A stretch of 64,000 nt of DNA from Paraburkholderia sp. FT54 (GTDB lineage Bacteria; Pseudomonadota; Gammaproteobacteria; Burkholderiales; Burkholderiaceae), in contig NZ_CP134195.1 in assembly GCF_031585635.1 (NCBI RefSeq), forward strand, positions 4,092,001 to 4,156,000, given 5' to 3'. Every line of letters starts with the position of its first letter. Within the stretch, counting starts at the first letter, position 1. This document shows positions 1-64,000 of the stretch, one piece after another. The notes beneath the pieces are model-generated. The model was not told the origin of the DNA. It did not search any database and worked only from the letters and a program-made list of their open reading frames with translations. A program made the position numbers and the translations under genes.

Positions 1-254
1 TAGAAATAATTCTTGCGCGCGAAGATGCTGCGCGGCGCCACCGTCGCGCCGATCGCGAGGCCGAACTGGATCGCGCGCTCCACAGCGCCGCGGTTCATCA
101 CCGGCAACGTGCCCGGCAACGCCAGATCGACGGGGCACGCTTGCGTGTTCGGCGCAGCGCCGAATTGCGTAGCGGCTCCCGAGAAAATCTTCGATTGGGT
201 CGACAGTTGCGTGTGGGTCTCCAGACCGATCACGACTTCCCATTGCTTGGCCAT
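1..254 (-). CDS. gatB: Aspartyl/glutamyl-tRNA amidotransferase subunit B, 5' part only
   Basis: GatB binds the misacylated tRNA and activates its Glu or Asp side chain in the GatCAB complex, which converts Glu-tRNA(Gln) and Asp-tRNA(Asn) to the amidated forms. Only the first 84 codons lie in the window, and the rest runs off the left edge. The N-terminus reads [19 protein letters not shown], the classic start of GatB with its GLETH(V/T)QL motif. The ATG at 254 is 6 bases past the gatA stop on the same strand, so the two are transcribed and probably translated together. The start is firm because the family motif begins within ten residues of it. Confidence 0.95.
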
Positions 255-60680: not shown

Positions 60681-61088
60681 TTACTCTTCTTCTGCGTCTT
60701 CGCCGTAAAAGCGCACGATCATCTCTTCGACCAGAAAACGGTCTTTCGGCGTGAGCGACTCGATCTTCGAAGCGAGTTCGATCGTTTCCGCCGACGGCGG
60801 ATACTTCTCGCCACGCGCCAGCGGCCTCGCGTTCACGCCCGGCGACGGTCCGTAGTGCAGCCAATGCTCCTTGACGTTCAACCATTCGGCTAGCGTACGC
60901 AACTTATCGGGCTTGGGAATCGTCGTACCGGATAACCACTTGTGAGCGGTTTGCGGCGTGACCTCGCGCTCGCCTCGGTAGCGAAGATTAAACTGCTCGG
61001 CGAGCTTGGTCCCGCCGCGAATCTTCAGCGGCTCCAGCAGGTCCTTCAGCCGTTTGGCGAAGGCGGCTTTTTCTTTATTGGTCGGCAT
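60681..61088 (-). CDS. Cro/C1-type helix-turn-helix regulator
   Basis: A 135-residue protein with an HTH in the first 75 residues (KLAEQFNLRYRGEREVTPQTAHKWLSGTTIPKPDKLRTLAEWLNV), of the type seen in small phage- and host-encoded regulators. The remainder is acidic and ends with a run of Glu. Targets are unknown. The start at 61088 (MPTNKEKAAFAKRL) was chosen because the upstream in-frame ATG reads through an AT-rich promoter-like area. It lies between the yidC terminator and mnmE. Confidence 0.78.
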   Translation of the reverse strand: MPTNKEKAAFAKRLKDLLEPLKIRGGTKLAEQFNLRYRGEREVTPQTAHKWLSGTTIPKPDKLRTLAEWLNVKEHWLHYGPSPGVNARPLARGEKYPPSAETIELASKIESLTPKDRFLVEEMIVRFYGEDAEEE

Positions 61089-61457
61089 GAGCCGGATTGT
61101 GCAATTCAACATCCCACCAGTTGACAACCGATCAAGTTTAGTTTGAGCGTATTTGAGATAGTTTTAGCTTGCTGGCCGCGCCGGGCAAAGCGTCTCCAGA
61201 ATTTGTATCTTTTTGGTGTTTTTCCTTGTTTGATGCGCTTGTCCAAGATTTCACCGTCCTACAGCGTCCTATTTATTCCGAAGAAACGCAGTAGCAATCC
61301 TAGCTTGTTTAAGATAAATCCCGACTGCTTGAATAAGGCGGTTTGCGCCATCAACGAGAGCCTCGCGACACGGTCGCCGGATGCGCCCGCGTTACAATGC
61401 CTCGCGCCGCGCTGACCGGTGCCAGCCCGCCCTCCTCTCTGTCTTGCCACGCTTTTT
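61089..61457. other. AT-richer intergenic region between the HTH gene and mnmE
   Basis: About 370 bases. The part from 61125 to 61330 is AT-richer than its surroundings and contains repeated TTTGAG and TTTAG-like stretches upstream of the HTH gene, possible operator sites. No gene with a family match was found, and no clear mnmE promoter was identified. Confidence 0.35.
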
Positions 61458-62852
61458 ATGCTCACCACCGACTCCGATCCCATCGTCGCCATTGCCACAG
61501 CGCCCGGCCGGGGAGGAATCGGCGTCGTGCGGATTTCGTTCGGCCGCGCGGGAGAGGCGGCCGCCCAGCCGCTGATGCAGGCGCTCACTGGCCAGACACT
61601 CGCGCCGCGTCACGCCAGTTACGTGCCGTTCCTCGACGACAGCGGCAATGCGCTCGATCGCGGCATCGCGCTCTACTTTCCGGCGCCGCATTCCTACACC
61701 GGCGAACACGTGCTCGAATTGCAGGGCCACGGCGGTCCGGTTGTGCTGCAACTCGCGCTGCAGCGTTGCATCGATGCCGGCCGCGCGTTCGGTCTGCGCC
61801 TGGCCGAACCGGGCGAATTCACGCGCCGCGCCTTCCTCAACGACAAGCTGGATCTGGCGCAAGCCGAAGCCGTCGCCGATCTGATCGAAGCCAGCACCGA
61901 AGCCGCCGCGCGCTCGGCGGGCCGCTCGCTCGACGGCGCGTTCTCGCGCGACATTCACGCGCTGGTCGAAGACGTGATCACACTGCGCATGCTGGTCGAA
62001 GCGACGCTCGACTTCCCCGAAGAGGAGATCGACTTCCTCGAAGCCGCCGACGCACGTGGCAAGCTCGCGCGCATCCGCGAGCGTCTCGCGGACGTGCTGA
62101 GCGAAGCGCGGCAAGGTGCGTTGCTGCGCGAAGGACTCTCGGTCGTGCTGGCCGGGCAGCCGAATGTCGGCAAATCGTCGCTGCTGAACGCGCTGGCCGG
62201 CGCGGAGTTGGCCATCGTCACGCCGATCGCCGGCACGACCCGCGACAAGGTCGCGCAGACGATTCAGATCGAAGGCATTCCGCTGCACGTGATCGACACA
62301 GCCGGCCTGCGCGATACCGAGGACGAAGTGGAAAAGATCGGCATTGCGCGCACGTGGAGCGAAATCGAGCGCGCGGACGTGGTGCTGCATCTGCTCGATG
62401 CGCGCACCGGCATGACGGCCGAAGACGAAGCGATCGCCGGACGCTTTCCGGGCGGTGTGCCCGTGGTGCGCGTGTTGAACAAGACGGACCTGACCGGCCT
62501 CGCGCCGGCGTCGCAAGCGCTCGATGCCGACCTCGATCTGAGTGAAGTGCGGCTGTCGGCGAAACAGGGCGACGGCGTCGCGCTGTTGCGCGATGAGTTG
62601 CTGCGGATCGCCGGCTGGCAAGCGGGCGCGGAAACCGTGTACCTTGCGCGCGAGCGGCATTTGATTGCACTGCGCGCCGCGAACGAGCATCTGGCGAGCG
62701 CAGCGGCACACGCCGATCAGAACTCGCAGGCGCTCGATTTGTTTGCGGAGGAACTGCGGCTTGCGCAAGATCAGCTGAATTCGATCACTGGTGAATTCAG
62801 TTCGGATGATCTGCTCGGAGTGATTTTCAGCAGGTTCTGTATCGGGAAGTGA
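61458..62852 (+). CDS. mnmE: tRNA modification GTPase MnmE (TrmE)
   Basis: MnmE, with MnmG, adds the carboxymethylaminomethyl group to U34 of certain tRNAs. The 464-residue protein has the folate-binding N-terminal domain ([31 protein letters not shown]), a helical domain, and an inserted GTPase domain with [27 protein letters not shown] and NKTD. The C-terminal CIGK holds the catalytic cysteine. The ATG at 61458 (MLTTDSDPI) is favoured. Its last 18 bases coincide with a likely integration site, and the reading frame is intact. Confidence 0.97.
62835..62852 (+). other. Probable attachment site (attL) at the mnmE 3' end
   Basis: TTCTGTATCGGGAAGTGA encodes the terminal Phe-Cys-Ile-Gly-Lys-stop of mnmE. 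It closely resembles the 18-bp site in the same place used by Salmonella genomic island 1 and its relatives. A tyrosine recombinase gene starts 174 bases downstream, in the arrangement expected of attL-int. The matching right-hand copy would lie outside the window. Confidence 0.6.
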
Positions 62853-63026
62853 GCGAGGATTGGGATTTTCACCAGAGAGCCCGTGCTGCAAGGATCGCCG
62901 CGTGATCCACCGCATCGGTCCACGCACAAAAAATCCTGCGTGGCTCACCCAAAAGCCGCCAAATCTTTGGTACACAGACGATATAAGGTTTAAAATCGCC
63001 GCTGTCCGTGCATCAACGATCCGCGC

Positions 63027-64000
63027 ATGCCCCGCTTAGCCGTCCCGCTCACCGAAGCCCAGATCCGCGCGCTCGAACCGCGCGCCACCCGTTATTGCGT
63101 CGCCGACGGCAACGGCCTCGTCATCGAAGTCATGACGACCGGCACCAAGGTCTGGCGCTTCCGCTATTCACTGAACGGCAAGCGCCAACCGCTCGCCACG
63201 ATCGGCGACTACCGGATGATCTCGCTGCGCGTCGCGCGGGCCAAGGCGCAGAAATATGCGGAGATGGTCGCGCAAGGCATCTCGCCGGTTGCCACTGCGC
63301 GGCGCGACCGTGGCGCTGAAAGCAAAGCCGATGTCCTGCGCGAAGCCGCCGAGCTATATCTCGCAACGGAAATGGCCGGCAAGTCAGAGGAATATCGCCG
63401 CACCACGCGGCGAGCGCTCGACAAGGACGTCCTGCCTGCCATCGGCAACATGCCGATCAAGGCCGTCACCGCCGACGACATCGTTGCGATATGCGACAGA
63501 ATCAAAAGCCGCGGTTCGCCGAAAATGGCGCTGCACACGCGCAATGTGGTCAAGCGCCTCTACGAGTATCTGATCGCCCGACAACTCGCAGCCGACAACC
63601 CGGCCGAGGTCGTTCCGGCGCGCTCCATCGCCACCTTCGACAGCCGCACCCGCGTGCTCTCGGGCGACGAGATCGGCGCCATGTTTCGTTCGATCGACGC
63701 GTCGAGCATTCGCCGGCCTCTGAAGCTGGCGCTGCATCTGCTAGTGCTGACGATGGTGCGGAAATCGGACCTGGTCGAATCGACGTGGGCCGAATTCGAT
63801 CTGGACAAAGCGTTGTGGACGATACCTGCTGCACGTCTGAAAAGAGACCGCGATCAGCGCGTGCCGCTTTCGCAGCAGGCCGTCTCGATGCTGCGCGAGC
63901 TTTATCACGCCAAAGCCAGCCGAAACTTCGTATTCCCGAGCGTTAGGGGCGACGATAGGCCGATCGCCAAAAGTACGCTGAATCAGGCGGTCAAGGCACT
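63027..64000 (+). CDS. Tyrosine recombinase/integrase, 5' part (runs off window)
   Basis: The first 324 residues of a phage-type integrase. The N-terminal DUF4102 arm-binding domain (CVADGNGLVIEVMTTGTKVWRFRYSLNGKRQPLATIGDY) is followed by the core-binding SAM-like domain (about 105-195). The catalytic domain begins with RVLSGDEIGAM; LLVLTMVRKSDLVESTW holds the first catalytic Arg, and the Lys lies near LKRDRDQRVPLS. The later HxxR and Tyr motifs are beyond the window. This class includes P4-like and SGI1-like integrases. Position next to the mnmE 3' end implies the start of an integrated island. ATG at 63027. Confidence 0.9.
   Translation, partial: MPRLAVPLTEAQIRALEPRATRYCVADGNGLVIEVMTTGTKVWRFRYSLNGKRQPLATIGDYRMISLRVARAKAQKYAEMVAQGISPVATARRDRGAESKADVLREAAELYLATEMAGKSEEYRRTTRRALDKDVLPAIGNMPIKAVTADDIVAICDRIKSRGSPKMALHTRNVVKRLYEYLIARQLAADNPAEVVPARSIATFDSRTRVLSGDEIGAMFRSIDASSIRRPLKLALHLLVLTMVRKSDLVESTWAEFDLDKALWTIPAARLKRDRDQRVPLSQQAVSMLRELYHAKASRNFVFPSVRGDDRPIAKSTLNQAVKA

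Follow-up and report, generated by a model that had tools for sequence, protein, structure and literature searches.

A catalytically dead integrase beside mnmE in Paraburkholderia, probably kept as a DNA-binding protein

The tyrosine integrase encoded downstream of mnmE in Paraburkholderia sp. FT54 is catalytically dead as judged from its sequence, from which the normal nucleophile is absent. We consider it probable that the locus is a collapsed mnmE-targeting element whose cargo-less, vertically inherited dead integrase has been kept as a DNA-binding protein, probably as an autorepressor; as part of this reading, the catalytic Tyr would have been lost once, in a common ancestor. We infer an apparently domesticated, bivalent DNA-binding protein. 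Read from annotation, an integrase beside mnmE would signal a mobile island; of the 95 full-length genes of this kind in the genus, 91 lack the catalytic Tyr. The locus represents a natural experiment on a recombinase turning into a DNA-binding protein, and it offers an apparently single loss event, dozens of aligned descendants, active sisters, an inverted selection profile and predicted binding sites that are still in place. Soil strains thereby allow a direct test of function after the loss of catalysis.

The closest parallel in concept that we found is provided by the domesticated Crypton recombinases (DUF3504) of animals, in which, according to PMC3212892, the catalytic Tyr was lost and the gene was kept, probably for its DNA- or protein-binding part. 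The Crypton-derived proteins described there are eukaryotic and often fused to other domains, whereas the present case is bacterial and lies between att remnants. A search of the open PMC literature revealed no paper on this gene, which does not prove that it is unpublished.

The integrase and its catalytic residues

The analyzed stretch of 64,000 nucleotides (the window; G000:C1:4092001-4156000 of the 8.65-Mb genome) ends inside the integrase gene (Table 1). The first-pass annotation had noted an 18-base site at the end of mnmE and an integrase starting 174 bp further on, and both observations were borne out. The 18-mer TTCTGTATCGGGAAGTGA (62835-62852) forms the last bases of mnmE, which stops at 62852, and the integrase ORF opens at the ATG at 63027, 174 bp past this end. 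The full integrase comprises 404 aa, with its stop codon 241 bp beyond the window edge. Pfam analysis detected Arm-DNA-bind_3 (7.5e-21), Phage_integrase and Phage_int_M, that is, the arm-binding, central and Phage_integrase domain set of P4-type (DUF4102) integrases. The domain order (arm-binding, central, catalytic fold) is the same as in these enzymes, and the solved P4-type domains of the CPS-53 integrase (2kj8) and of a CP4-like integrase (3jtz) match the family profile. The present protein differs in that its Tyr and its third His are gone.

Table 1. Features at the mnmE-integrase locus (positions in the window unless another contig or locus is named)
Feature	Position	Strand	Basis or remark
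mnmE (trmE), intact	61419..62852	+	ORF of 477 aa if the earliest start is used
attL core, end of mnmE, AGGTTCTGTATCGGGAAGTGA	62832..62852	+	read from sequence
Arm-type site TTGGTACACA, sharing bases with the -35 of the integrase promoter	62967..62976	+	GGTACAC conservation among Tyr-less loci
Promoter-like TTGGTA-18-TAAAAT	62967..62996	+	sigma-70-like consensus match, not proof
Catalytically dead P4-type integrase	63027..64000, runs to G000:C1:4156241	+	ORF, Pfam, alignment with active relatives
Downstream unit, outside the window	GGTACACA C1:4156288-4156295; AGGTT C1:4156353-4156357		read from the right flank
53-aa ORF (MSESLIAYLLGPAVMLLVG...)	L007:3477-3638		starts 235 bp after the integrase stop in the window's genome; membrane-like by eye

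Tyrosine integrases use the catalytic set R-K-H-R-H-Y. With positions taken from the active relative L100, the window integrase was found to keep the box I Arg, the Lys, and the box II His and Arg, and to lack the third His (LAH) and the Tyr (YNRAEYA), leaving the set incomplete. In the alignment with active relatives, the YNRAEYA stretch is replaced, and the PHROG integrase match ends at residue 348 in the window protein versus 397 in an active relative.

Two samples were used to follow the loss. The named set was assembled with two conserved peptides, which gave 101 loci; the best 80 of these plus the window make up its 81 loci, and it is biased. A genus-wide count over 144 genomes, tallied by hand, serves as a check on it. 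In the named set, the Tyr motif was missing in 62 of 81 loci and present in 19, and all 81 reading frames were open. Genus-wide, 94 of the 144 genomes harbor a full-length relative (95 copies; E <=1.2e-149). All 95 copies are open from start to stop and at least 370 aa long; 91 lack the Tyr motif and four have it (G069, G080, G023 and G018), and a motif search over the same 144 genomes returned the same four Tyr-positive genomes. Behind the HDFRR box, no Tyr whatever is left in 55 of the 62 named and 79 of the 91 genus-wide Tyr-less copies; in the seven named Tyr-less loci with a Tyr behind this box, its positions differ. The box I Arg is lost in 7 of the 62 Tyr-less named loci, four of which have also lost the box II His. 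The C-terminal WADFV-like end is retained in 90 of the 91 Tyr-less copies.

DNA sites, active relatives and possible roles

The motif GGTACAC was detected within 130 bp upstream of the integrase in 60 of the 62 named and 89 of the 91 genus-wide Tyr-less loci. Across the 1.95 kb scanned, the promoter-like sequence that this motif overlaps in the window was the single sigma-70-like hit, where 0.4 would be expected. An arm-type site overlapping the int promoter is a feature of the KplE1 integrase IntS, and it is present here at the level of sequence. According to PMC2951348, IntS represses itself via sites that overlap its own promoter next to attL, and here, likewise, an arm-type site lies on the integrase's own promoter near attL. 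IntS as described there is an active prophage integrase, whereas the window enzyme is dead and the ORFs tested revealed no prophage genes.

Downstream, GGTACAC was found within 300 bp in 61 of the 62 named and 90 of the 91 genus-wide dead loci. A GGTT located 40-90 bp behind this downstream motif in the named set was 66 bp away in 40 cases, 67 bp in 21, 65 bp in 3 and 81 bp in 2. The full downstream unit, GGTACAC with GGTT 65-67 bp on, was present in 59 of 62 named and 87 of 91 genus-wide loci. Among these 59 units, the 8-bp motif reached a pairwise identity of 0.99 and AGGTT one of 0.95, as compared to 0.37 for the spacer, 0.31 for the flanks and 0.57 for the third codon positions of the integrase gene in the same 59 loci. 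Elsewhere in these loci, GGTACACA occurred 10 times in 1.04 Mb (both strands). The unit is tandem-duplicated in five of the seven symbiont-clade loci (L096, L097, L099, L102 and L107). Midway along the downstream spacer, 10 of the 59 units contain an IHF-like site, which is enriched over shuffled sequences (0.63); this concerns a minority and is a hint.

The pattern TTGGTACACA-52..66-AGGTT matched 33 places in 31 of the 144 genus genomes, with two matches for the control; as read from the coordinates, 31 of the 33 places lie beside the integrase or a fragment of it. The window genome's own unit reads ACGGTACACA and hence does not match this pattern. A role as a global regulator was rejected: TTGGTACACA occurs six times in the own genome as compared to five times for the reversed control, so that no regulon is visible. 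The other five copies lie in open frames of at least 235 codons, and none of them has GGTT at 66 bp; the open-frame test is weak, however, because a long antisense frame covers the true site as well.

The active relatives show how such sites are arranged in an element. The active element of P. mimosarum carries GGTTYTGTATCG at both ends. When 22 genomes or records from active loci (including some duplicates) were scanned for GTACAC-52..66-RGGTTYTGY, 17 places in nine of them were matched. Seven of these places, all 71 bases long and taken to be on the integrase's contig, come from six different genomes (P. mimosarum, B. lata, B. paludis, Burkholderia sp. Bp9143, Caballeronia sp. dw_276 and Trinickia mobilis). 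The remaining ten are of various lengths and no more numerous than the matches of the reversed control (10), and no 71-base attR-like match was obtained in the remaining active genomes among the 22. By hand count, the 71-base length corresponds to 64 bp from GGTACAC to GGTT; the layout of the dead loci thus occurs here as attR. The core repeats are 18.5 kb apart in P. mimosarum and 9.6 kb apart in B. lata, with genes in between. Since the active attR layout is the same, the order attL - arm - int - arm - attR half-core can be read in the dead locus, from which the cargo has disappeared. The initial idea of an mnmE-targeting integrase family holds; active relatives elsewhere show attL-int-cargo-attR, but this genome does not.

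If the dead integrase is kept as a DNA-binding protein, its N-terminal domain would hold GGTACAC, and the protein would repress its own promoter by analogy with KplE1 IntS. A protomer would bridge the downstream arm and the core remnant as in an attR complex, without recombining. The cell might gain from this by the repression or blocking of related incoming elements, or by the control of neighboring genes.

Control of neighbors is the core of another explanation, which is possible but on the whole unlikely. It states that the protein regulates itself and its surroundings (mnmE read-through, the 53-aa ORF or nearby core genes) by binding or looping two sites. Two conserved sites do flank the integrase gene, one of them overlapping the promoter, and the 53-aa ORF close to the integrase stop follows in the main clade. 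By tblastn, this 53-aa stretch was found behind the integrase in 48 of 49 main-clade loci, the window included, while the remaining locus (L072) shows the beginning of the ORF; NCBIfam and PADLOC gave no family match for it. Next come a small protein with a glycine-rich stretch, as seen by eye, and chemosensory genes assigned by Pfam (MCP, CheR, CheA-receiver and receiver-GGDEF; we took the liberty of naming the set Wsp-like), followed by a pyruvate dehydrogenase E1-type gene and an Lrp/AsnC-type regulator. However, the tested downstream neighbors were not found in the symbiont clade (L096-L099, L102, L106 and L107), though the unit is kept there, and no promoter columns are conserved at the downstream site.

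It is doubtful whether the dead integrase excludes islands. In this explanation, newcomers would be blocked or silenced because the protein sits on attachment sites or int-promoter sites belonging to related active mnmE elements, which have GGTACAC arms as well. Candidate targets exist, as most active relatives carry GGTACAC repeats near the int start and attR arms. Most of the 19 have several copies, both direct and inverted; in two relatives the motif reads AGTACAC (by eye). An active and a dead copy were seen together in just one genome, G069 (L199-L200, C35:32500-58000), and this case is suggestive: the active element, whose arms read AGTACAC instead, comes first after mnmE, and the dead copy follows after about 20 kb. 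However, an active member was found in 1 of 91 dead-carrying versus 3 of 53 other genomes, which is a trend only (p=0.14), nor do carriers preserve the attL core better than non-carriers (GGTT in 42 of 62 versus 38 of 48, p=0.20). Moreover, something did insert at L109 (=L202): by eye, the mnmE-integrase gap contains a second, decayed att-like copy plus another region resembling the integrase promoter, both probably left over from a former tandem insertion.

With low confidence, we also propose that this may be a genus-level, non-cutting DNA-bridging protein, a protomer of which would span GGTACAC and the half core AGGTT at near-frozen attR geometry. It would form a locked intasome that acts as a repressor and confers immunity to related mnmE-targeting islands.

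Inheritance and selection

Among the best 80 of the 101 loci, mnmE lies directly upstream of the integrase in all 80, and the window integrase is most similar to its counterparts in Paraburkholderia sp. BL9I2N2, P. sp. BL25I1N1 and P. xenovorans LB400, with 90-93% identity. A search for relatives in 59 genomes, including the own one, gave some integrase match in 51. Besides the own gene, a match of 58-85% identity was present in 20 of the 59 genomes, all within the genus, and mnmE was found within the 1.5-kb flank in 19 of these 20. In the exception, G017, taken to be the same locus as L074, a dinD-like gene lies between mnmE and the integrase. The same integrase beside mnmE in relatives with no variable cargo behind it, named at the outset as an outcome that would speak against an island, was thus found, but 48 of the 144 genus genomes lack this gene. 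Two more (G008 and G157) contain fragments only, and the gene is therefore not essential to the genus.

In a tree calculated from 343 columns, with the Tyr region excluded, the 62 dead proteins form one clade (100/98) and require one state change; the sister of this clade is an active protein of Caballeronia jiangsuensis MP-1. Within the dead set, integrase and mnmE distances are correlated (Mantel r 0.82, reached in 0 of 999 permutations). Mapped onto a tree of mnmE with 122 rows, the dead state requires 5 changes versus 40.9 for shuffles; this tree is quick, has many weak forks, and shows clustering rather than the exact history. Its main dead clade of 50 rows contains no non-carrier, and G157 is the sole damaged copy (G008 is outside the tree). 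Vertical inheritance at one locus, a mark of a domesticated gene, is what these data show.

Selection was assessed by summing dN/dS over 447 dead pairs with mnmE dS <0.6 and over 103 active pairs. In the dead pairs, dN/dS was 0.091 for the arm domain, 0.138 for the core-binding domain, 0.16 for the N-part of the catalytic domain and 0.168 for the C-terminal helix. It rose to 0.541 in the tail that formerly held LAH and Tyr; the value for mnmE was 0.057. In the active pairs, the values were 0.135 (arm), 0.149 (core-binding), 0.079 (catalytic N-part) and 0.046 (tail), which are rough because dS in this set is near saturation. The profile is inverted: the arm is tightest and the tail relaxed in the dead copies, and the tail is tightest in the active relatives. 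Purifying selection after the loss of mobility, a second mark of a domesticated gene, was thus observed, and the contrast between regions is not expected of a drifting pseudogene.

We regard it as very unlikely that the integrase is a relic decaying slowly without function. The loss of the Tyr and, mostly, of the LAH box, together with the box I and box II losses described above, would fit decay, as would the fragments in two smaller genomes and a median overall integrase dN/dS of 0.185, about three times that of mnmE (0.055). However, the Tyr-less full-length copies are all open (62 of 62 and 91 of 91), dN/dS is 0.09-0.17 outside the tail, and the DNA sites are kept amid drifting sequence. 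In addition, the main dead clade has no non-carriers and only the one damaged copy. The idea that the Tyr-less protein aids an active integrase in trans as a structural subunit is more improbable still: the arm-binding, core-binding and C-terminal parts are kept and the own genome has further P4-type integrases (32-33% identity), but 90 of the 91 dead-carrying genomes have no active member of this integrase family.

The mnmE end and the search for an island

Ancestrally, the attachment target was the 3' end of mnmE, into which the integrase family presumably once carried an element. The 18-mer itself is the conserved coding end of mnmE (FCIGK). Since the mnmE ends are closely similar in the 48 genus genomes without this integrase, the 18-mer is no evidence for an island. 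It occurs once in the window at <=3 mismatches (0.02 expected), and its exact sequence is a single copy in the whole 8.65-Mb genome. At <=3 mismatches, the genome contains five places, namely mnmE, one with 2 mismatches and three with 3, as compared to three for the reversed control. The copy with 2 mismatches, at C1:388970, was rejected as attR; it lies inside a 248-codon open frame and 0.45 Mb off if the chromosome is circular. From mnmE to the contig end, the next best match has 5 mismatches. The expected second copy of the site was sought genome-wide with no hit acceptable as attR, and the attR remnant amounts to the decayed half-core about 112 bp after the integrase, nothing more.

The first-pass annotation had proposed a mobile island with its cargo to the right, which does not hold for this genome: there is no second site, no cargo in the ORFs tested, and no catalytic Tyr. 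Pfam analysis of 10 ORFs in the 17 kb to the right of the integrase start gave chemosensory and metabolic families, no family for three of the ten, and no mobilization family. In four proteins tested, no NCBIfam cut-off was reached and PADLOC gave no match. The downstream genes are not cargo, because portions of this gene series recur in many main-clade loci, some of which lack the Wsp-like genes. Nor was mnmG displaced to make room for the integrase, as had been supposed; it is located at C1:27226-29100.

SGI1 and related islands insert at the 3' end of trmE/mnmE, and mpsA, traG, sgaC and traN are the conserved mobilization-gene baits for such islands, as given in PMC8409611. An insertion at this 3' end is present here, and the likeness to the islands described there lies in the common target gene. 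The window locus differs in having no attR, no active integrase and no mobilization genes in the ORFs tested; the direct repeat that would bound the cargo of an SGI1-type island was absent from the genome scan. A live SGI1-type island with its left end in the window and its cargo to the right, which the position at mnmE and the orientation of the integrase would suit, is refuted for this genome by the missing attR, the missing cargo in the tested ORFs, the missing catalytic Tyr and the identical arrangement in relatives.

The mnmE site has a second frequent guest, a gene of about 280 aa that is putatively dinD-like. It is located between mnmE and the integrase in L074, L077, L081 and L091, near mnmE in the non-carriers L124, L126, L153 and L154, and about 1.2 kb downstream of the integrase in L044, L046 and L078; remnants were recognized by eye in L075 and L090. 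Just upstream of mnmE, on the minus strand of the window (60681-61127), a 148-aa ORF has a translation that resembles a helix-turn-helix repressor by eye. In the right flank, Rfam identified a Betaproteobacteria_toxic_sRNA (84 bits; L008:12161-12224, minus strand).
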